IMG/VR virus record: IMGVR_UViG_3300027736_000143 | Coordinates: 1 to 32,742 of that record | Length of the DNA stretch: 32,742 nt | Strand: one strand, 5' to 3' | Source: a virus | Shown: in pieces, positions 635 to 32,742 of the stretch | How the letters are laid out: the number at the start of each line of letters is the position of its first letter | Position numbering within the stretch: the stretch's first letter is position 1 | The notes under the pieces: model-generated | What the model was told of the DNA's origin: nothing | Seen by the model: the letters and a program-made list of their open reading frames with translations, nothing else | The model's database searches: none | Translations under genes and position numbers: made by a program

Positions 635-1993
635 TTATTCGAACAAACTATCTATGGTCGATTCCTTATTATACGCCTCTGGATGGTATTTGTCAAGCAT
701 TTCACGACCACCATTTTTCTCAAGGTAATCATACCATTCTTGGCTTGACCACATACCTTCGCTGATACCGTTCCAAAGTTTACGCTGCATAGGGTGTTCT
801 TTGTTCTTACGACGATACTCTACGAAGTTGAATCGGCTGTTCTCGTATTCATACGAACCTAGTTCAAGCATCTTCTCGCGAAGATAACAAACGAGACTAA
901 TGCGCTCACCATCGTCATAAGTTTCGATTGGCGTATTACCGTGCATAATTTCATGGTTGTTTACAAGAAGAAGATCGCCTGGACGAACATTAACAGCGAT
1001 ACGATACTCAGGGAATACAAGATATCCACCAGTATACTTTCCGTTGTTAGAAAGAACAAGAAGATTGCTCAAACCTTCCGTGAAGTCACCAGCGTCGCGA
1101 TGGCAAGCAGTACGGAATGTCTTATTGACGGTGACTGTGGTAAACACAGTCTTGGGTACTAGGAATCTTGGGTCAACCTTATCTGCTGCTGCCCTTTGGT
1201 TTCCCCATCGCCAAGGAAGAAGTTTCTTATATCCCTTATCCAAAGACTGTAGGAATGGGAATGACATCTTAAACTTGTCATAATGGTTTTGCGTATAGGC
1301 AGTAGCACGACCATAAGGAATGCGCGGATAACGGTCAAACCATCCAGCAATGCCAGAGTTTACCACGTTTGCATAGGTTGTATCTGAAATATAAGTTTCT
1401 TCGATACCACGAGCCTCTTCTTTACGCTGCGTAATTGTCATCTTGACAGCCTTGGCTAGCCACTTGTCAAAATTAAACTTATCTTCTTTGACTTTAGCGG
1501 AGAGCCAAACTAAACCACGACTATCCCCACCGCTCGCATACTTCTCTTTGAGGAATTCAACTTCTTTCTTGATATCTAGTTTGACAAGAGTATTTTCAGG
1601 CTCTTTCTTAAAGAGGTCAAGAACAGCAAGTTGAAATTCTGTCACCCACTCGCGACCACCACATTTGTCGCCCTTCGGTCCAGCGGCAAGTCCACGGTTC
1701 TGGGTTTGTGTTGCTGCTTCGCGCAAACCAAGATATGCTTGTTCTTGTTCTTCTTTGCTGAAGAAATTCTTTCTAAACTTGAACGCAATCTTGCGCTCAT
1801 CCTTGGTATTCTTTTGCTTACACTCTGCGCAATTACCTTCTTCGCAAGAAGCAAGCATTGTAGGATCGCATTCTGCTTTTTGATAGCAGTCCGTATCCTC
1901 TTCGATAAGAACGTCATAATGAGATTCATCAACGAATTGCCCAAGCAATTTTTCGCAATCAATCTTTTCTCTTGCTACAATAACTTTAACCAT
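635..1993 (-). CDS. TET/JBP-family 2-oxoglutarate/Fe(II) dioxygenase (probable 5-methylpyrimidine DNA hydroxylase)
   Basis: 452 residues. The C-terminal half has the double-stranded beta-helix signature of this superfamily: an HxD iron motif at H298-R-D300 (ACHRDAGD), a glycine-rich GGYLVFPEY strand, GDLLLVNNH, the distal iron histidine H351 in MHGNTPI, and a 2-oxoglutarate-binding arginine R364 in ERISLVCYLR. TET/JBP enzymes oxidise 5-methylcytosine or thymine in DNA; phage members are known to act on 5-methylcytosine together with glycosyltransferases. Residues 36-58 contain five cysteines (C36, C42, C50, C55, C58), a possible metal-binding module. Residues 115-290 probably form family-specific helices. 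The start is the ATG at 1993, preceded by a perfect AGGAGG and a consensus promoter. A glycosyltransferase follows in the same operon. Family assignment is fairly firm; the exact base modified is inference. Confidence 0.75.
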   Translation of the reverse strand: MVKVIVAREKIDCEKLLGQFVDESHYDVLIEEDTDCYQKAECDPTMLASCEEGNCAECKQKNTKDERKIAFKFRKNFFSKEEQEQAYLGLREAATQTQNRGLAAGPKGDKCGGREWVTEFQLAVLDLFKKEPENTLVKLDIKKEVEFLKEKYASGGDSRGLVWLSAKVKEDKFNFDKWLAKAVKMTITQRKEEARGIEETYISDTTYANVVNSGIAGWFDRYPRIPYGRATAYTQNHYDKFKMSFPFLQSLDKGYKKLLPWRWGNQRAAADKVDPRFLVPKTVFTTVTVNKTFRTACHRDAGDFTEGLSNLLVLSNNGKYTGGYLVFPEYRIAVNVRPGDLLLVNNHEIMHGNTPIETYDDGERISLVCYLREKMLELGSYEYENSRFNFVEYRRKNKEHPMQRKLWNGISEGMWSSQEWYDYLEKNGGREMLDKYHPEAYNKESTIDSLFE

Positions 1994-2510: not shown

Positions 2511-3926
2511 CTATTTAGCGACATTCACTTTGGCAATAACCTTGTCCGCAAAAGCAGGTTCACACATTTCCATCAGCCTCACTCGGGCTTCTGCAAGAGC
2601 ACGTTCCTCGCCCTTATGAGCCATTTCCAACGTGTCACAAACTACTTGCGCAAGTACAGTGTTCGTCGGCATATGGGTTGCGGTAAGAGTTATGCTATTG
2701 TCGACGGCATCAGAAGTCAAAGAAATCACAACCTCAGCAGCATTATACAACGAAGGAGTTGCATCCGCATCGATCTTAGTATAGAAGTCCAGGAAGGAAT
2801 TCTTGGTATCCGTATCGAAACGGTTCAAGCACAACTCGATCGCCTTCTTGCGATTCTTAAAGATGCTGTATGCCTTGGCGATATGCACCAGACGTCGGGT
2901 CGAGATAACCTCATCGCAGCCATGGTCTTCGAACGTCTTGCGGATACTCTCAGCCCACGTTACCAAACGCTCGATGAATTCCAGGTCACTCTTCTCGGTG
3001 ATACCCAACTCGAAGAAATTCTTCTCGAGGATCTTGCGCTCGGTAGCGACAGGAGGATATTCCTGCTCGACCGTGATGGCGAAACGCTCGAGGAACGCTT
3101 CGTTCAGGAGGTTGGTGCCGATGAATCGACCGTCGTCGTTGCCCTTGCCCTTGGTGTTAGCCGTGGCAATGATGTTGAAACCTTCGACGGGGCTGACAAC
3201 TTCGCCAGTCTTCTTGTCGAAGTATGGCTTACCCTCAAGGATGGGCTGAAGGCACAGAAGATCTTCCGTACCCAAGTCCGTCTCGTCGAGCAGCAGTACT
3301 GCACCACGACGCATCGCGGTCAGAACTGGACCTTCGCGGCGAACCGTGTTACCGTCAATCAACTCATAAGAGCCAATAAGATCGGTCTCGTCGGTGCGCT
3401 TGGTGATATTGACGCGAATCAACTCACGCTTACTGGTCGCACAAACCTGCTCAATCATCAGGGTCTTGCCATTGCCCGACAGACCCGTGATGTAGATCGG
3501 ATAAAAGATCTTGCTCTTGATAATGTCACGAAGATCGTTGTAGAAGCCAAACGGCACATAGGTCACGTTCTTCTCTGGCACGAACGATTCAGTCGTGTTG
3601 AGTGCACGTCTACTCGCGAGGTTCACGATGGTAGCAGCCATCGCGGGAGCGGACTCCGCAACAGCAGCCTGAACCGCAGCACGCACTTTGGGTGCTGCCT
3701 TGCTCTTGGTTTTCGTCGCCTCGACCGCACCGTCACCGACACGATAGAAGCCACGACGCACCTTGCGCGAATCGTCGCGGAACAGGAAGTATGGCTGACC
3801 CAAATCGCGGTCTCGCGCATAATCTGTAATCTGCTTGCCGCTCAGGATATCAGCGTCATAAAATTCGCCGAGGTCCTTGAGGAATTTCGTCTGTTCCGCG
3901 ACGGTTGTATAATTCGACTTAGCCAT
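2511..3926 (-). CDS. AAA+ ATPase, MoxR/CobS-like
   Basis: 471 residues from the ATG at 3926, with GAGGGA upstream; an in-frame GTG at 3953 lacks such a site. The AAA+ core has Walker A GLSGNGKT (residues 148-155), Walker B AVLLLDE (209-215), a sensor-1-like NIIATANT and an arginine-finger-like FLERFAIT. The N-terminal 60 residues are a separate small domain, linked by an Ala/Lys-rich stretch (70-100). MoxR-type ATPases, including the CobS chelatase subunit often annotated in marine T4-like phages, work with a VWA partner to insert metals or remodel proteins. That partner is encoded two genes upstream at 5397-7706. The gene looks more GC-rich than the structural genes (a spot count at 3061-3120 gives 37 of 60). 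True cobalt chelation is doubtful because no other cobalamin genes are visible. Confidence 0.85.
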   Translation of the reverse strand: MAKSNYTTVAEQTKFLKDLGEFYDADILSGKQITDYARDRDLGQPYFLFRDDSRKVRRGFYRVGDGAVEATKTKSKAAPKVRAAVQAAVAESAPAMAATIVNLASRRALNTTESFVPEKNVTYVPFGFYNDLRDIIKSKIFYPIYITGLSGNGKTLMIEQVCATSKRELIRVNITKRTDETDLIGSYELIDGNTVRREGPVLTAMRRGAVLLLDETDLGTEDLLCLQPILEGKPYFDKKTGEVVSPVEGFNIIATANTKGKGNDDGRFIGTNLLNEAFLERFAITVEQEYPPVATERKILEKNFFELGITEKSDLEFIERLVTWAESIRKTFEDHGCDEVISTRRLVHIAKAYSIFKNRKKAIELCLNRFDTDTKNSFLDFYTKIDADATPSLYNAAEVVISLTSDAVDNSITLTATHMPTNTVLAQVVCDTLEMAHKGEERALAEARVRLMEMCEPAFADKVIAKVNVAK

Positions 3927-3991
3927 AATATAATTCCCTCTCACCAGTATCACTTACCATAACTGTAGTATGCCTGAAAAGGCGAAAAACA

Positions 3992-4027
3992 CAATAGAAA
4001 AAACTCTAATAAAATCAACGACTTACG
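3992..4027 (-). repeat. 36-base element upstream of the AAA+ gene, copy A
   Basis: Nearly identical to 7759-7794: 34 of 36 positions match, including an uninterrupted 27-base core. On the minus strand it starts in the last codons of the haloperoxidase gene and ends 65 bases before the AAA+ start. It contains TTGATT, a 16-base gap and TATTGT, which could serve as a promoter. A second shared patch, CTTTTCAG, follows about 10 bases further on. Confidence 0.8.
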
Positions 4028-5316
4028 TGCGCCCCAAAAAGAGCCTCAGATTTGCGCCAAACCTGCTCGCCAATCTTCTTGCCCATGTGTCTTGCGACAA
4101 GATCGCCATCCTCAAAATGGATACCACCGTATCGGCGGGACATACCTGCCTCATCAGCGGCTTCCGTAAATGTGCGCCAAGAAAGAGTTACGCCATTCTT
4201 ATCAACGAAATACTCAAACTTATCGCTTTCAGTAAACTCGCGAAGAACAACAGCAGCTGCAGCACTGAACGTACTGTGACCTGAAGTGTATTCTGCAAAC
4301 GGTGGCGTCAAGAAACTATCTGGCTGATAAGGCTTCCAATTAGCGCCATCAACAAGAACGCCATTCACACCCTCAATCGTTTGACCTGCATACAGGTAGC
4401 GGATTGCAGTAATCGGGCGAACAGAGTCATACGTTACCTTTGTCGCCCAGCAACCAATGCTAGCATCTAGCAATGCATTGCCAAGAGCAAAGAACATCTT
4501 AGCATCTTGGTCGGTGGTGTGATTGTCTCGCTTAGAAACAACTTCCGCAAACAAAGTCCAGTGTCCAGGAGGCAACTCAGACTTCGGTCCGTCAGCCCAA
4601 TACTCAGCGATTGCCTTCTGCTTATCTGTTAGATTAGCAGTAATGTTTACAATCTCTTGAGCCTGATGAATGAATCGAGTAGACCCAAACTCTGCTGGTG
4701 GCTTAGGAAGAAACTGCGTTGCGCTTGTAAGAGCAAACGGAGTCACGTTCTTCCAGTGTGGAGCAACAAACCTTTGACCAGGCAAAGGTTGCCAGTGATT
4801 AACGTCAGCAACATAAGTTGGCGTATTGACAGGTTGGTATCCAGTAGTATCGGCATATCCGTTTAACTGGTTCGAACCGTCAGTGTGGCGATATGAAAGA
4901 ACTGCACCACATGCCTTTTTGGCGATATCAGCAGCACCAGTATCATTCTCGGAATATCCAAGAGAAGTCAACTTCTGCTGAAATTGCGCCCTTCGGCTTG
5001 GGTACACATCTGACAGAGCCATGAATGCAGCGTGGCTGATTGCCTCTCGCTTGTTGGCTTCCGTTCGTGCACCTTCAGGCTGACGCAAATCATCACCGTA
5101 CATAGTACCAAGAGCAGCGTTGTCATATGCAGCCCAAGCATCATAAATGCAGGTATGCACAATAGCAATCGCTCGAGCAGTCATCGGCGGTCCTGGCTTC
5201 GTATCGCGAATTGCCTGGAGCATCGTTTCATTCCACTCAACCGAAATAGTATCGGCGACTGCACTTCCAGAACTAGCCAAAAGTACAGCCGCCACAATCG
5301 TCTTTAAATTAGTCAT
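4015..5316 (-). CDS. Secreted vanadium-dependent haloperoxidase / PAP2-superfamily enzyme
   Basis: 433 residues with a clear signal peptide: a hydrophobic run IVAAVLLASSGSAVA ending in an AVA-D cleavage site near residue 21, so the product should reach the periplasm or medium. The vanadate-pocket residues of vanadium haloperoxidases are in order: K293 and R300 (KVTYDSVRP, seven apart as in fungal chloroperoxidase), S345-G346-H347 (YTSGHS) and R394 with H400 (RRYGGIH, six apart). These enzymes use peroxide to oxidise halides to hypohalous acid; the same pocket in PAP2 acid phosphatases hydrolyses phosphate esters. Length and spacing fit bacterial haloperoxidases. GAGGGG precedes the start. It sits between the two halves of an AAA+/VWA pair. 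The choice of haloperoxidase over phosphatase activity is inference. Confidence 0.85.
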   Translation of the reverse strand: MTNLKTIVAAVLLASSGSAVADTISVEWNETMLQAIRDTKPGPPMTARAIAIVHTCIYDAWAAYDNAALGTMYGDDLRQPEGARTEANKREAISHAAFMALSDVYPSRRAQFQQKLTSLGYSENDTGAADIAKKACGAVLSYRHTDGSNQLNGYADTTGYQPVNTPTYVADVNHWQPLPGQRFVAPHWKNVTPFALTSATQFLPKPPAEFGSTRFIHQAQEIVNITANLTDKQKAIAEYWADGPKSELPPGHWTLFAEVVSKRDNHTTDQDAKMFFALGNALLDASIGCWATKVTYDSVRPITAIRYLYAGQTIEGVNGVLVDGANWKPYQPDSFLTPPFAEYTSGHSTFSAAAAVVLREFTESDKFEYFVDKNGVTLSWRTFTEAADEAGMSRRYGGIHFEDGDLVARHMGKKIGEQVWRKSEALFGAHVSR

Positions 5317-5362
5317 AATATCCCCTCTTCATGATTTAGATTATCAACACTCAACACTCTGA

Positions 5363-5387
5363 TTCTCGGTGGGGGCGTTACCAAGAA
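5363..5387 (-). terminator. Weak hairpin after the VWA gene
   Basis: On the minus strand TTCTTGGT and ACCGAGAA form an 8-base stem with one G-T pair around a 9-base loop, just after the VWA gene stop at 5397. No T-tract follows, so this may be a processing site or chance. I see no convincing promoter in the 80-base gap 5317-5396. Confidence 0.25.
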
Positions 5388-5396
5388 TTAGAAACT

Positions 5397-7706
5397 TTAC
5401 GCGACTAGACCACCAGCCGCGATTTCCTTAGCAAACTGCGAAACTAGCGCACGGCTCGACTTCTTGCTATTCATGCTCTTCTTGAAAGCAGAAGTAATCT
5501 TAGCCTTGGACAAACCAGTCAGGTCACCGATTCCGTCCTCAGCGATCTGCTCCTGCGCAGCCTCGATGTAGAAGTAATTGTCATAACCGAGATTCGGCAT
5601 CGCAAAGAACTTATCCTCGCGCAGCTGCTTCAAGACTGCCGAACGTTTCACAGCGTCGCCCTTGATGTCGCGGATAATCCACTTCATGCTGCGCTTTTCT
5701 ACCAAGTAGAAGCCGATATGTTTGCATCCAGTAACATCGCGAACAAGGCTAGTGACTGCGGCTTGCTGGTTCCAATCGTCGTCGATACGAACCTTCTTCT
5801 TAGTCTTCTTGTCGACAAGATAGACAACACCAAGTTTGTTATAGCGGCTGCTGTACATACTAGTGTGATTCGGGCAAGACAAACCATCACCACCCTCACC
5901 GTCGGTGAGGTATACGACGTTGGTCACGTCCAACTTATGGGCAGCTCGGAAACTCTTGATAATCTCGCGGGAAGCGAGCAGCGTATGGACAAACGGAGTA
6001 CCGTTCAACCCGAAGCCAGAAGCGTCCCAATTGCGATCGAAGTAGCCACAATCTTTTTGATAATAGCCACCGATATACTCATTTGCAACAACACACAAAG
6101 TATTGAACGCACGACGCATAGCAATAGGCGAAAGCGAAGAACCGATCAGGTGCTTGAGGTGGAACGAATGCCCCATGACTTTGCAAACATTGTCGCCCTT
6201 GCAATCGAACTTGCTAGAATTTGTCAAAGCAATATTTCGCGAAGTTGTCAGATTGCTGCTGCTATACAGGTCGTCAGAAAAGCCATAAACATCGAATGGG
6301 ATGCGCACAGTCTTGCAAAAAGAAACGAGCACAAGCAGCTGCTCGAGCGTATTGCGCAGGATGTTCTGCATAGAACCAGACATGTCCAGGAACAAAATCA
6401 TGCCGTGGTTCTTGCCACGAGGCATAATCGTTACCTTCTTGAAAAGGTCAGAGGAGAACTTGTACTTATGCAACACGTTCATATCCAACTCGCCAGTCTT
6501 AGCAGTCTGCTGACGGGCATACTGAGATGCCGTCTTGCGCATCTCAAATTCCTTGACGAGATGCATCACAAACTTATTGTTGTTGCGAGTAAACTTGCGG
6601 ACGCACTTCTGGACAACCTTGTCGTAATCAACACCGTTCTTGCTGTAGATGGTGCTGTTTTGAGTTTGTACTCGCAACCATGCTTCGAGGTCGTCCATTA
6701 CAATCTTGTTTGCAACCATAATCTTGCTAAGATCGGCTTCTGGCAACTCGAACATCGAGATGATACCGTCTTCGTTGACTAATTCGGCTTCACGATTGCG
6801 GAAGTTGGTATCGGTCACGGATTCAGGTTCGTTAGACTTTTCCTCACCGTTATTCAGCCCACCCTTAGAGCCGAAACCACCTTCTTCATCTGAGTCTTCA
6901 GATTCTTCTTCGCTACCGTCGCTGTCGGCATCTTCACCGTCATCGTTGCCGCTAGAAGATTCGTCACCTGCTTCGTCATCGAGATCGTCATAATCGTCGT
7001 CGCGTTCGTAGCCGCCACCAAAATTTTGTTCATCAGAATCCGTATTCTCGTCGGTTTCTTCATCGCCGTCGTCTTCAGAATTTTCCTGGTTCTCAAGATT
7101 CTTGAGCGCATCCTTGAGGTCTTCCATGGACTGGATCTTGTCCTGCTCATGTTCCTTGGTATAGCCATACACACGACGAGCAAGTGCTTCGACATCTTCC
7201 CAAGTTTCGGCAGTCTCGACCTCGGCGACCATTGCGCGCTCTTCGTCGTTGAAAGGCACGTGAACGTGTGCGCCCAACTTGAACCGAATGTTGATTCGGT
7301 CGATGAGCGTCATCTCACCGATGTCAAGATTCTTAATACCGAAGAAGTCGCGGTCCCACAGACCCTTATAGGCTGTGGAAAACGAACGACCAAGACCAGG
7401 GAATCGCGACTTAATCTTGCGCTCGATACGCGCATCTTCGATGACGTTCAAGAAACCCTTAAACTTGGTGTCACCGTCCTTGACGGCATTATGCCAACCC
7501 TGCTCAGGTGTTTCGAGCGCATGACCGACTTCGTGACCCATGAGCAAATCGTACAGGTCGCCGTCCATGTCCTTCCACACGGGGCAGACGAGTGTACGGT
7601 TCTTCAGGTCAAAATATGCCGTTTGGGTGTTCTGGTGTGACACCGTAATGTTTTCGCTGGCTAGCAATTTTGCTAGTAGTGACTTTGAATTCTTGATATC
7701 TGCCAT
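5397..7706 (-). CDS. CobT/NorD-like VWA protein with an HExxH zinc-protease-type motif
   Basis: 769 residues; GAGGAG precedes the ATG at 7706. Residues 58-62 read HEVGH, with a VIEDARIE segment at 88-95 that can supply the third metal ligand, the arrangement of gluzincin-type metallopeptidases and also seen in CobT/NorD-type proteins. Residues 207-278 are a very acidic low-complexity linker. From about 435 to 640 a von Willebrand A domain begins with the MIDAS motif D441-M-S443-G-S445. VWA proteins of this type are partners of MoxR/CobS AAA+ ATPases, and such an ATPase is encoded at 2511-3926. The pair may remodel or activate a protein, or insert a metal. Whether the protease motif is catalytic is unknown. 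A copy of the 36-base element lies upstream. Confidence 0.8.
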   Translation of the reverse strand: MADIKNSKSLLAKLLASENITVSHQNTQTAYFDLKNRTLVCPVWKDMDGDLYDLLMGHEVGHALETPEQGWHNAVKDGDTKFKGFLNVIEDARIERKIKSRFPGLGRSFSTAYKGLWDRDFFGIKNLDIGEMTLIDRINIRFKLGAHVHVPFNDEERAMVAEVETAETWEDVEALARRVYGYTKEHEQDKIQSMEDLKDALKNLENQENSEDDGDEETDENTDSDEQNFGGGYERDDDYDDLDDEAGDESSSGNDDGEDADSDGSEEESEDSDEEGGFGSKGGLNNGEEKSNEPESVTDTNFRNREAELVNEDGIISMFELPEADLSKIMVANKIVMDDLEAWLRVQTQNSTIYSKNGVDYDKVVQKCVRKFTRNNNKFVMHLVKEFEMRKTASQYARQQTAKTGELDMNVLHKYKFSSDLFKKVTIMPRGKNHGMILFLDMSGSMQNILRNTLEQLLVLVSFCKTVRIPFDVYGFSDDLYSSSNLTTSRNIALTNSSKFDCKGDNVCKVMGHSFHLKHLIGSSLSPIAMRRAFNTLCVVANEYIGGYYQKDCGYFDRNWDASGFGLNGTPFVHTLLASREIIKSFRAAHKLDVTNVVYLTDGEGGDGLSCPNHTSMYSSRYNKLGVVYLVDKKTKKKVRIDDDWNQQAAVTSLVRDVTGCKHIGFYLVEKRSMKWIIRDIKGDAVKRSAVLKQLREDKFFAMPNLGYDNYFYIEAAQEQIAEDGIGDLTGLSKAKITSAFKKSMNSKKSSRALVSQFAKEIAAGGLVA

Positions 7707-7758: not shown

Positions 7759-7794
7759 CAATAGAAAAAACTCTAATAAAATCAATAACTTACG
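7759..7794 (-). repeat. 36-base element upstream of the VWA gene, copy B
   Basis: Direct repeat of 3992-4027 with two differences. It begins in the last codons of the deformylase gene (stop at 7790) and ends 52 bases before the VWA start. The possible promoter hexamers are TTGATT and TATTGC with a 16-base gap. With copy A it brackets the haloperoxidase and VWA genes. Confidence 0.8.
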
Positions 7795-8407
7795 CAAGCC
7801 CCTTATTTTGGAGCAACAAAGCAGCCTTTTCAGCCTGTTCTTGGGTGACTCTACCCATCTTCTTGAGGTTCTTCTTTACCTTTGATTTGGCTTGGTCGAG
7901 TTTAATTTTGCTAATCTTATCGGTGAATCTAATACCGTCTAAGTGGTCGATCTCATGCTGAACACAAACAGCACTTAGCCCGTCAAACTTCTGCTCAATA
8001 AACTCACCGCCCATAGCCTGGAAACGAACAGTAACACTACTTGCTCTAGGAACTTTAATGTATAGTCCAGGAAGAGATAAACAACCTTCTGTAAATGTGG
8101 CTGGGATATAAGAGCGATCAATAATTACTGGATTGAAAAGAATCCAAATTTTATCGCCCATGTTAATCGCGCAAACTCTTTTGTTGATACCGCATTGATT
8201 CGCGGATAACCCAAGACCCTCATACTTACCAAGCGTTTCAGCCAATGAGTACCCAAGCACTTCCGCTTCTCTTCTTGCGTTTTGCATATTAAAATCAAAT
8301 GGCTCTGTTGGTTTGCCTAATACATCGTCATAGTAATCGACCAGCTTATAGACCTCATACTCAACCATGGACCCATTTACGAATTTAATCATTCTAGACA
8401 TAATCAT
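7790..8407 (-). CDS. def: Peptide deformylase
   Basis: 205 residues. All three deformylase motifs are visible: GLGLSANQ (64-71), EGCLSLPG with metal ligand C109, and QHEIDH with H151, E152 and H155. The enzyme removes the N-formyl group from nascent proteins. Phage copies are known in marine T4-like phages and are thought to support rapid synthesis of phage-encoded proteins. The C-terminal 35 residues (lysine-rich, then QEQAEKAALLLQ) extend past the catalytic core and resemble the helical tail of bacterial enzymes. The start ATG at 8407 overlaps the gene 46 stop in ATGA, so translation is probably coupled; ATGs two and five codons further on are possible alternatives. Confidence 0.93.
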   Translation of the reverse strand: MIMSRMIKFVNGSMVEYEVYKLVDYYDDVLGKPTEPFDFNMQNARREAEVLGYSLAETLGKYEGLGLSANQCGINKRVCAINMGDKIWILFNPVIIDRSYIPATFTEGCLSLPGLYIKVPRASSVTVRFQAMGGEFIEQKFDGLSAVCVQHEIDHLDGIRFTDKISKIKLDQAKSKVKKNLKKMGRVTQEQAEKAALLLQNKGLA

Positions 8408-30292: not shown

Positions 30293-30472
30293 TTATGGGG
30301 GAGGTGATTCTGGTGGGCTGTATGGTGGCCAAATATATCTCGGCTCATTCCCGGCATTTATCCATGCGATGTATTCAAGAAAATCTGCATCTGTTGCACT
30401 CTCGCATGGAGCAACAATCTTGCCGTCGCTATCACGATATACGTTACCTTCTTCATAGACTATTGTGTACAT
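30293..30472 (-). CDS. 59-residue tail-fibre assembly-factor-like protein
   Basis: The ATG shares one base with the fibre gene stop (TAATG), so translation is coupled. The sequence runs MYTIVYEEGNVYRDSDGK, then ATDADFLEYIAWINAGNEPRY, and ends in a proline-rich tail PPYSPPESPPP. The pattern of a short beta N-terminus with a C-terminal Y-x-x-W-x-x-x-GN-x-P motif is common in small proteins encoded after phage tail fibres and in fibre-assembly chaperones. Position and motif support a fibre-assembly or fibre-associated role; this is not proven. Confidence 0.7.
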   Translation of the reverse strand: MYTIVYEEGNVYRDSDGKIVAPCESATDADFLEYIAWINAGNEPRYIWPPYSPPESPPP

Positions 30473-32742
30473 TATGAGTAGTCCGATTCGATATAAAAGT
30501 TAACGATATCAATTTGTGGAGTTCCTGAAGTGGCTGCAGTCGCTCTCCACATTCTTGGAGAAAGTAGTGTAGTATTTGCAGGAAGTTGTGTGCCAGCAGT
30601 AACAGCAGTTACTGACCCGATTGCATTGTCTCCAGTATTTAGTCTGGTAACTTCATAGTCAACTTCTGTCCAGGTATCTGTAGCTGAATACAAAATTAGT
30701 TCATATATATCGGTATTTGCTGTTTGAGATGGGAAGTTAGCGCCAAGATCAATTGGTGTTTGTGCTGCAGAACCACCATAATAGAAAAAAAGATTAGTGT
30801 TAGCAGTACCGCATCCAACTCCAATAGCGTTTGTTAAAGTAGCAGGTTCGACACTTGTTGGAGTAGCAGTACTGTTAGTCATACCAACAAATGTTCTACC
30901 GTTAGTGACGGCATCAGAATTACCCCACCGAAACACGACATAAAATCCACCAGCAGGAATTGCGCCACCAATACCCAGAGAGTAATTGTTCAGGTTAATA
31001 CGCCATCCAGCAACGTTGGTGGTGCCGCTAGTTCCAACATAACCTTGTTTCCCTACTCTAGTGTAGAAATTAGTAGTGGCAGTTGTTCTTGCAGTAGCAG
31101 AGCCAGAAGAAGTAGTGACGCTTGCTGCAGCAAGACCAAACACACCTGGCGCAGTCGCGGAGCTGGCTGGAGGAGTCCAAAGACCCATTCTATTCATACC
31201 TAGGAATGGCTGGAATGGACTTTCGTTACCGGAAGGTACACGAAACTCTGGCATCATTCTTCCGCCATTATATCTAGCGTAGAGTGATACATTATTTGCT
31301 GTTGGAGTAAGACCTGTGCTAGCTGGAAAAGTAATGCTGTTTGTAGTTAATGTATTAGAAGAAACATTAAAGGTAAGCTGAGCAACAGCACCAAATGTAG
31401 AGTTATTGTTAAACACAACATAAGTGTTAGCACCAGGAACAGTAACAGAAGTGCCTTGAACACCTTGTAGACCTTGAGCACCTTGGGAACCAGTACCAGT
31501 TAGCCCCTGAAGTCCTTGAGTGCCTTGGGTTCCTGTTGTTCCCTGAGATCCAGTGGTGCCTTGTAGACCCTGAAGACCTTGAGTTCCTTGCGATCCTGCG
31601 GTTCCTTGAGAACCAGTTCCTGCCGTTCCCTGAGATCCAGACCCAGTAGTGCCCTGTAGACCCTGAAGACCTTGTGTTCCCTGAGATCCAGTTCCAGTTG
31701 CACCTTGAAGCCCCTGGAGACCTTGCGTTCCTTGAGAACCAGTCCCAGTAGTGCCCTGTAGACCTTGGAGACCTTGTGTTCCTTGTGACCCTGTGGTTCC
31801 CTGAGATCCAGTTCCAGTAGTGCCCTGTAGACCTTGGAGACCTTGTGTTCCTTGTGACCCTGTGGTTCCCTGAGATCCAGCGCCAGTTGCGCCTTGAAGT
31901 CCTTGGAGACCTTGTAGCCCTTGAGTGCCTAAATCACCAGCTCTTGTAAACAAAACCGATACACGCTCACCAGCAGTTGGATTATTAGTTCCACTTCCAT
32001 TTTGAACATTTATTTGGAACCAAGTACTGTTATTTGCAACTGATGTTACTTGAAAAATACCAAGAGTACCATCGCCAGGAGAAATGCCATTTTGAATGTA
32101 TAAGTGACCTTTAACTGTGCTTGTTGAACCAGAAACTGCATCCCACCAAGGAGAATAATCATATGAAGCACCACCAACAATGTCGTACCTCCCTACAGCA
32201 ATTGCAGTTACTGATGATGGTGTTGTCGCGGCAGTATTAAAACGAATAAATCCCGTGCCAGGATCAGCCATTGTAGTAGTTGAGTTAAAACTGTATGGTA
32301 TACCAGCTCTACTTAAAATTGTTCCTTGTGTTCCCTGTGGACCTTGAATGCCTTGTGACCCAGCGCCAGTTAGTCCCTGGATTCCCTGCGTCCCTTGAGC
32401 AGTTCCAGCTGTTCCTTGAATACCTTGAACGCCTTGTGCACCTTGAATTCCTTGTGAGCCTTGAGTTCCTTGCGCTCCTTGAGTTCCAGTACCCGTAGTG
32501 CCCTGTGGACCTTGGTTGCCCTGAGTTCCTTGGATTCCTTGTGAACCTTGGTTGCCTTGAGTTCCCTGGATGCCTTGTGAACCCTGAGTTCCCTGGATGC
32601 CTTGTGAACCCTGAGTTCCCTGGATTCCCTGAGCACCTTGGTTTCCTGTGGTTCCCTGGATTCCTTGTGAACCCTGAGAACCTTGGATTCCCTGAGCACC
32701 TTGGTTTCCTGTGGTTCCCTGGATTCCTTGTGAACCCTGAGA
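30472..32742 (-). CDS. Long collagen-like tail fibre / receptor-binding protein (partial, 5' end outside the window)
   Basis: At least 756 residues; the reading frame is open to the window edge. Order of domains: collagen-like G-x-Q-G repeats (32742 to about 32337); a beta domain of about 130 residues (TTTMADPGTGFIRFN to VLFTRAGDLG); a second collagen-like block (about 31925-31440) with repeated GTQGLQGLQG units; then a C-terminal domain of about 320 residues with RVPSGNESPFQPFLGMNRMGLW, TRVGKQGYVG and WRATAATSGTPQIDIVNFYIES. The C-terminal part is probably the receptor-binding tip. An ATG at 32271 (MADPG) is in frame but has no ribosome site and lies mid-domain, so it is taken as internal. 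The small gene after it may help assembly. Confidence 0.85.
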   Translation of the reverse strand, partial: SQGSQGIQGTTGNQGAQGIQGSQGSQGIQGTTGNQGAQGIQGTQGSQGIQGTQGSQGIQGTQGNQGSQGIQGTQGNQGPQGTTGTGTQGAQGTQGSQGIQGAQGVQGIQGTAGTAQGTQGIQGLTGAGSQGIQGPQGTQGTILSRAGIPYSFNSTTTMADPGTGFIRFNTAATTPSSVTAIAVGRYDIVGGASYDYSPWWDAVSGSTSTVKGHLYIQNGISPGDGTLGIFQVTSVANNSTWFQINVQNGSGTNNPTAGERVSVLFTRAGDLGTQGLQGLQGLQGATGAGSQGTTGSQGTQGLQGLQGTTGTGSQGTTGSQGTQGLQGLQGTTGTGSQGTQGLQGLQGATGTGSQGTQGLQGLQGTTGSGSQGTAGTGSQGTAGSQGTQGLQGLQGTTGSQGTTGTQGTQGLQGLTGTGSQGAQGLQGVQGTSVTVPGANTYVVFNNNSTFGAVAQLTFNVSSNTLTTNSITFPASTGLTPTANNVSLYARYNGGRMMPEFRVPSGNESPFQPFLGMNRMGLWTPPASSATAPGVFGLAAASVTTSSGSATARTTATTNFYTRVGKQGYVGTSGTTNVAGWRINLNNYSLGIGGAIPAGGFYVVFRWGNSDAVTNGRTFVGMTNSTATPTSVEPATLTNAIGVGCGTANTNLFFYYGGSAAQTPIDLGANFPSQTANTDIYELILYSATDTWTEVDYEVTRLNTGDNAIGSVTAVTAGTQLPANTTLLSPRMWRATAATSGTPQIDIVNFYIESDYS
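31747..31884 (-). repeat. 69-base tandem repeat in the fibre collagen region
   Basis: Two adjacent copies, 31747-31815 and 31816-31884, differing at only two positions. Each encodes 23 residues (mostly G-x-Q-G type triplets) in frame. The near-identity points to recent duplication. Confidence 0.9.
32622..32742 (-). repeat. 63-base tandem repeat in the fibre collagen region
   Basis: The unit starting at 32622 recurs at 32685 with a 63-base period up to the window edge. It is in frame (21 residues) and probably continues beyond the window. Confidence 0.85.

Follow-up and report, generated by a model that had tools for sequence, protein, structure and literature searches.

A predicted exported vanadium haloperoxidase encoded at the CobT/CobS junction of a T4-like phage contig

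Virus record IMGVR_UViG_3300027736_000143, analysed here over its whole length of 32,742 nt (the window), contains a gene with the signature shared by vanadium haloperoxidases (VHPOs) and PAP2 phosphatases. VHPOs are found in algae, fungi and bacteria, and convert peroxide and halide into bleach-like oxidants.

By gene content, the 32.7-kb record was a T4-like phage contig. It encoded a gp23-type capsid protein, prohead protease, scaffold, portal, sheath, tube and terminase, together with gp46/47-like proteins, a late sigma factor, UvsW and UvsY. Its gp23 was about equally distant (54-55% identity) from those of a pelagiphage, a cyanophage, a Methylophilales phage and a Stenotrophomonas phage. 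The haloperoxidase gene is thus plainly carried on the contig of a T4-like aquatic phage. CobT-like relatives on 22 IMG/VR contigs defined a set of siblings. Other genes of the window included a peptide deformylase gene (nt 7790-8407, minus strand; 1e-35), present in every sibling covering that region, and a tail fibre protein gene with collagen-like repeats (nt 30472-32271, minus strand). A Tet/JBP-type 2OG-Fe(II) dioxygenase (nt 635-1993, minus strand; 2.2e-25) shared 69-78% identity with its counterparts in close siblings and 51% with that in sibling L053; DNA base modification is possible in this phage group.

The haloperoxidase gene and the features around it are listed in Table 1. The first-pass annotation had located the gene exact to the base without naming a strand; it lies on the minus strand, and the plus strand over the same interval contains stops. 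The open reading frame is far beyond chance, because it matched cellular proteins over the full length at up to 59% identity, the nearest being from Methylococcales and Nitrospira; relatives also occurred in Actinomycetota and others.

Table 1. Coordinates of the haloperoxidase gene, its predicted functional segments and the adjoining phage features in the window
Feature	Coordinates (nt)	Strand	Details and evidence
CobS-like AAA+ ATPase, downstream neighbour	2511..3953	-	phrog_249; domain/PHROGs match
Phage promoter box of the CobS-like gene	3992..4026	-	GTAAGTCGTTGATTTTATTAGAGTTTTTTCTATTG; first bases double as the final codons and stop of the haloperoxidase gene
Vanadium haloperoxidase gene	4015..5316	-	433 aa, ATG start, TGA stop; ORF, Pfam, PDB matches, predicted fold
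Third segment, S393-R394-x5-H400, predicted axial vanadate ligand His400	4117..4140	-	Invariant in alignments A1 and A3
Second segment, F340-x4-S345-G346-H347, predicted acid/base His	4276..4299	-	Invariant in A1 and A3
First predicted vanadate-binding segment, K293-x6-R300-P301	4414..4440	-	Invariant in A1 and A3
Predicted Sec signal peptide, residues 1-21, cleavage after AVA	5254..5316	-	Sequence reading; hydropathy compared with window proteins and relatives
80-bp leader, CobT-like stop to haloperoxidase start	5317..5396	-	Shine-Dalgarno-like GAGGGG
CobT-like peptidase/vWA-like protein, upstream neighbour	5397..7706	-	phrog_459; PHROGs match
Second promoter-box copy, upstream of the CobT-like gene	7759..7793	-	Repeat and sibling comparison

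Two Pfam domains scored above their cut-offs, DUF6851 (1.5e-27) and VCPO_2nd (8.6e-9); no matching model was found in NCBIfam or PHROGs. Sequence matches in the PDB were VHPOs, namely 9l8x, 9ptr, 4cit, NapH3, NapH1 and Curvularia chloroperoxidase. A family profile retrieved VHPOs at 1.2e-98 to 6e-12 as the only credible PDB matches, with no phosphatase up to E=10. AlphaFold gave a poor model from 7 sequences (pLDDT 55), whereas that of the mature protein built with 13 sequences in the alignment reached pLDDT 87.8 and pTM 0.91. The predicted fold was a full-length VHPO helical bundle (Z 40-42 over 369-396 residues), matching 4cit with Z 42.5 over 369 residues, XhnO11 with Z 42.1 over 394 residues, and NapH1 with Z 41.8 and rmsd 1.9 Å over 392 residues. 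By every available test of sequence and fold, the predicted identity of the enzyme is that of a VHPO, complete, of the bacterial DUF6851/VCPO_2nd type and, as such, an ordinary addition to a known family.

The vanadate-pocket residues K293, R300, S345-G346-H347, R394 and H400, proposed in the first-pass annotation, were all found at those numbers with the spacing of the family. All seven were invariant in alignment A1, which comprised the window protein and eight cellular relatives (9 sequences), and remained so in A3, an alignment of the same type with three distant viral homologues added. Offsets in the phmmer alignment equated K293, R300 and S345-H347 with K353, R360 and S402-H404 of Curvularia chloroperoxidase, and by arithmetic on these offsets W290 and F340 correspond to W350 and F397. 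In A1, two segments found in most of the cellular relatives were missing from the phage copy, the SRVEPG loop of about 14 residues and a shorter one following WQPL; their loss may have altered the entrance to the active site.

The N-terminus, MTNLK-TIVAAVLLASSGSAVA followed by DT, is laid out like a Sec signal peptide, with a positive n-region, a hydrophobic h-region and an AxA-type cleavage site. Its mean Kyte-Doolittle value, 2.28, made it the most hydrophobic N-terminus among the 22 window proteins compared; the next (1.85) was a stretch of the prohead protease without the signal-peptide layout, and most of the others were about 1 or less. A similar start was found in most of the close cellular relatives. 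The convincing signal peptide claimed at first reading is thereby supported, and a Sec signal peptide would send the enzyme to the periplasm or out of the infected cell.

Between the CobT-like and CobS-like genes, the haloperoxidase gene occupies a junction whose setting is conserved, since the order gp46-PDF-CobT-CobS-wHTH-Tet/JBP was common to the better-covered sibling contigs. The junction was read in nine siblings (L040-L044, L047, L048, L053 and L054); none of the nine had a haloperoxidase match there. The gap was short, wide enough in places for a single small ORF, and five whole sibling records gave no PAP2 match. In close siblings, the box GTAAGTTATTGATTTTATTAGAGTTTTT or a variant of it, followed by -35/-10-like hexamers, was located upstream of both CobT and CobS; it probably serves as a phage promoter that includes an upstream element. 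The two copies of the box in the window shared 27 identical bp (nt 7759-7785 in the upstream copy), against a chance expectation of 0.00. The haloperoxidase gene ends inside the CobS copy, its last codons, GTA AGT CGT TGA, being the start of the box; thus, the gene was inserted after the CobT stop and before the CobS promoter, with neither harmed. Nothing convincing as a promoter or RNA structure of its own was detected in the 80-bp leader (promoter scan, none; RNA fold z -0.26). These findings indicate the clean insertion of one gene into a T4-like genome, at the CobT/CobS junction.

Assembly could mimic such an arrangement, and a chimera, or a piece of bacterial DNA fused to phage sequence, would account for the absence of the gene from all siblings inspected, the more so as the case is judged from an assembled contig. 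However, the gene is internal, with conserved phage genes in conserved order on both flanks, its 3' codons are formed by the phage promoter box, and its GC (48%) and GC3 (41%) fall within the spread of the window genes. Even from an assembled contig, synteny and junction are strong evidence, on which contamination was rejected; we regard it as exceedingly improbable, and the description of the enzyme as phage-encoded holds.

Regarding the identity of the product, the first-pass annotation had left haloperoxidase and PAP2 enzyme side by side, and only the former name stands. An exported PAP2 acid phosphatase, supplying phosphate to a phosphate-limited host, would share with the window protein the KX6RP / SGH / SRX5H signature and part of the fold, and vanadium apochloroperoxidase is able to dephosphorylate (title of PDB 3bb0). 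A PAP2 match was indeed obtained (E 2.5e-4), though at 21.2 bits against a cut-off of 27.2 (23.1 bits in another scan), whereas the VHPO-specific domains exceeded theirs. Acid phosphatases aligned with the predicted fold at Z ~13 over only ~200 residues, about half of it, the sequence profile retrieved VHPOs only, and the near relatives have VHPO domain architecture. Domain cut-offs, the profile search and the extent of the fold alignment together led us to reject a phosphatase identity, which we consider very unlikely. Somewhat less remote, but still improbable, is a degenerate or repurposed homologue that does not oxidise halide, for which the family offers a precedent in NapH3, which rearranges an alpha-hydroxyketone (PDB title), or an inactive remnant. 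The lost loops and a fairly long branch (0.7) would suit such a fate, but the reading frame is intact, the signal peptide is present, and none of the seven pocket residues has been lost, not even the SGH histidine that is replaced in the aligned motif of 9ptr and NapH1.

In the tree, the phage protein formed a lone branch, of that same length, within the cellular clade; nesting inside the main Methylococcales clade was disfavoured (AU p 0.034). Matches at E<=1e-30 were obtained in 23 of 201 Methylococcales genomes versus 2 of 398 genomes sampled from across the phylum, both counts including genomes already known to hold a relative. In the sampled genomes the cellular relatives were flanked by unrelated genes, consistent with an exported enzyme that acts on its own. 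Among viruses, no credible homologue was found in 50,697 catalogued phage records (noise only at the limit of E=10), and scans of IMG/VR with the single protein and with an alignment pattern yielded no close phage relatives, only distant ones, so that this version of the haloperoxidase was seen in one phage genome only.

The distant homologues comprised a VHPO group on other metagenomic phage contigs (L036, L030/L033 and L038), 34-37% identical and with the same pocket residues; one of these contigs is 207 kb long and carries gp23, and in L030/L033/L038 a phrog_455-type protein and a helicase are encoded near the VHPO gene. A single clade of all phage VHPO copies was neither supported nor rejected (p 0.204); separate acquisition of this group is likely. 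A further homologue, with an extra N-terminal region, was encoded on L065 (nt 4741-6726, plus strand), a contig that by eye is giant-virus-like, with thymidine kinase-, ThyX- and thiol-oxidase-like ORFs as well as GIY-YIG-like ORFs. Among viral structures, a Klosneuvirus protein matched the window enzyme best.

Taken together, we hold with considerable confidence that the gene specifies a complete and probably Sec-exported DUF6851/VCPO_2nd VHPO, ultimately of bacterial origin, inserted singly at the CobT/CobS junction and probably expressed by read-through from the CobT promoter. The phage lineage would have gained the gene ultimately from a bacterium as a one-gene insertion; read-through is assumed, with no promoter of its own evident. 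Once exported, the enzyme would coordinate vanadate through His400 and, with H2O2 as the oxidant, turn bromide or iodide, and perhaps chloride, into hypohalous acid, peroxide also being consumed. In established VHPO chemistry, peroxide adds to the vanadate anchored by the histidine and the peroxo group is then attacked by halide, releasing HOX; within the family, loops at the active-site entrance influence the halide range (PMC11871015). Since the phage enzyme lacks loops of its cellular kin and resembles the compact 4cit at this entrance, an iodo- or bromoperoxidase seems likelier, by analogy, than a chloroperoxidase.

A likely role would be the consumption of H2O2 and production of HOBr/HOI in the host envelope during infection. 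As to benefit, for which the first-pass annotation had suggested peroxide detoxification, quorum interference, harm to competitors or phosphate supply, our guess would put removal of peroxide around the infected host first, action of hypohalite on competitors or signals second, and release of phosphate last. The fuller picture, in which a T4-like phage arms the envelope of its host with a secreted halide oxidiser, infected cells use up H2O2 from their surroundings and give off HOBr/HOI, and this is the first phage-borne VHPO, is offered tentatively, at a little short of even chances. If the enzyme, a compact one for testing (412 aa when mature), is active and exported, phage auxiliary genes would extend to vanadium-dependent halogen chemistry and extracellular peroxide control; secretion of a VHPO during infection, if true, would make viruses contributors to aquatic halogen and peroxide chemistry.

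Among known systems, the closest are the DUF6851 VHPOs of Methylococcales and Nitrospira, which share with the phage protein the pocket, the kind of signal peptide and full-length identity of at most 59%, but are cellular and retain the loops that the phage protein, on its separate branch, lacks. The distant phage group differs in having no signal peptide, longer loops and other gene neighbours. NapH1 and XhnO11, bacterial VHPOs, match over the full-length fold (Z ~42); NapH1, however, is missing the SGH histidine kept in the phage enzyme, and acts in a natural-product pathway, whereas no pathway genes lie beside the phage gene. The vanadium iodoperoxidase of Zobellia galactanivorans (4cit) has the TPPFxEYTSGHS and SRxYGGIH motifs in nearly identical form and a similarly short loop before the third motif, although it comes from a marine flavobacterium and is only 24% identical overall. 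The enzyme itself thus belongs to a known family, and its carriage by a phage is the unusual part, apparently unreported, as no phage-borne vanadium haloperoxidase was described in the open-access papers searched. The nearest precedent for a phage-encoded halogenating enzyme is VirX1 of cyanophage Syn10, described as the first halogenase characterised from a virus (PMC8407142), which is an unrelated flavin-dependent enzyme working without vanadium chemistry.
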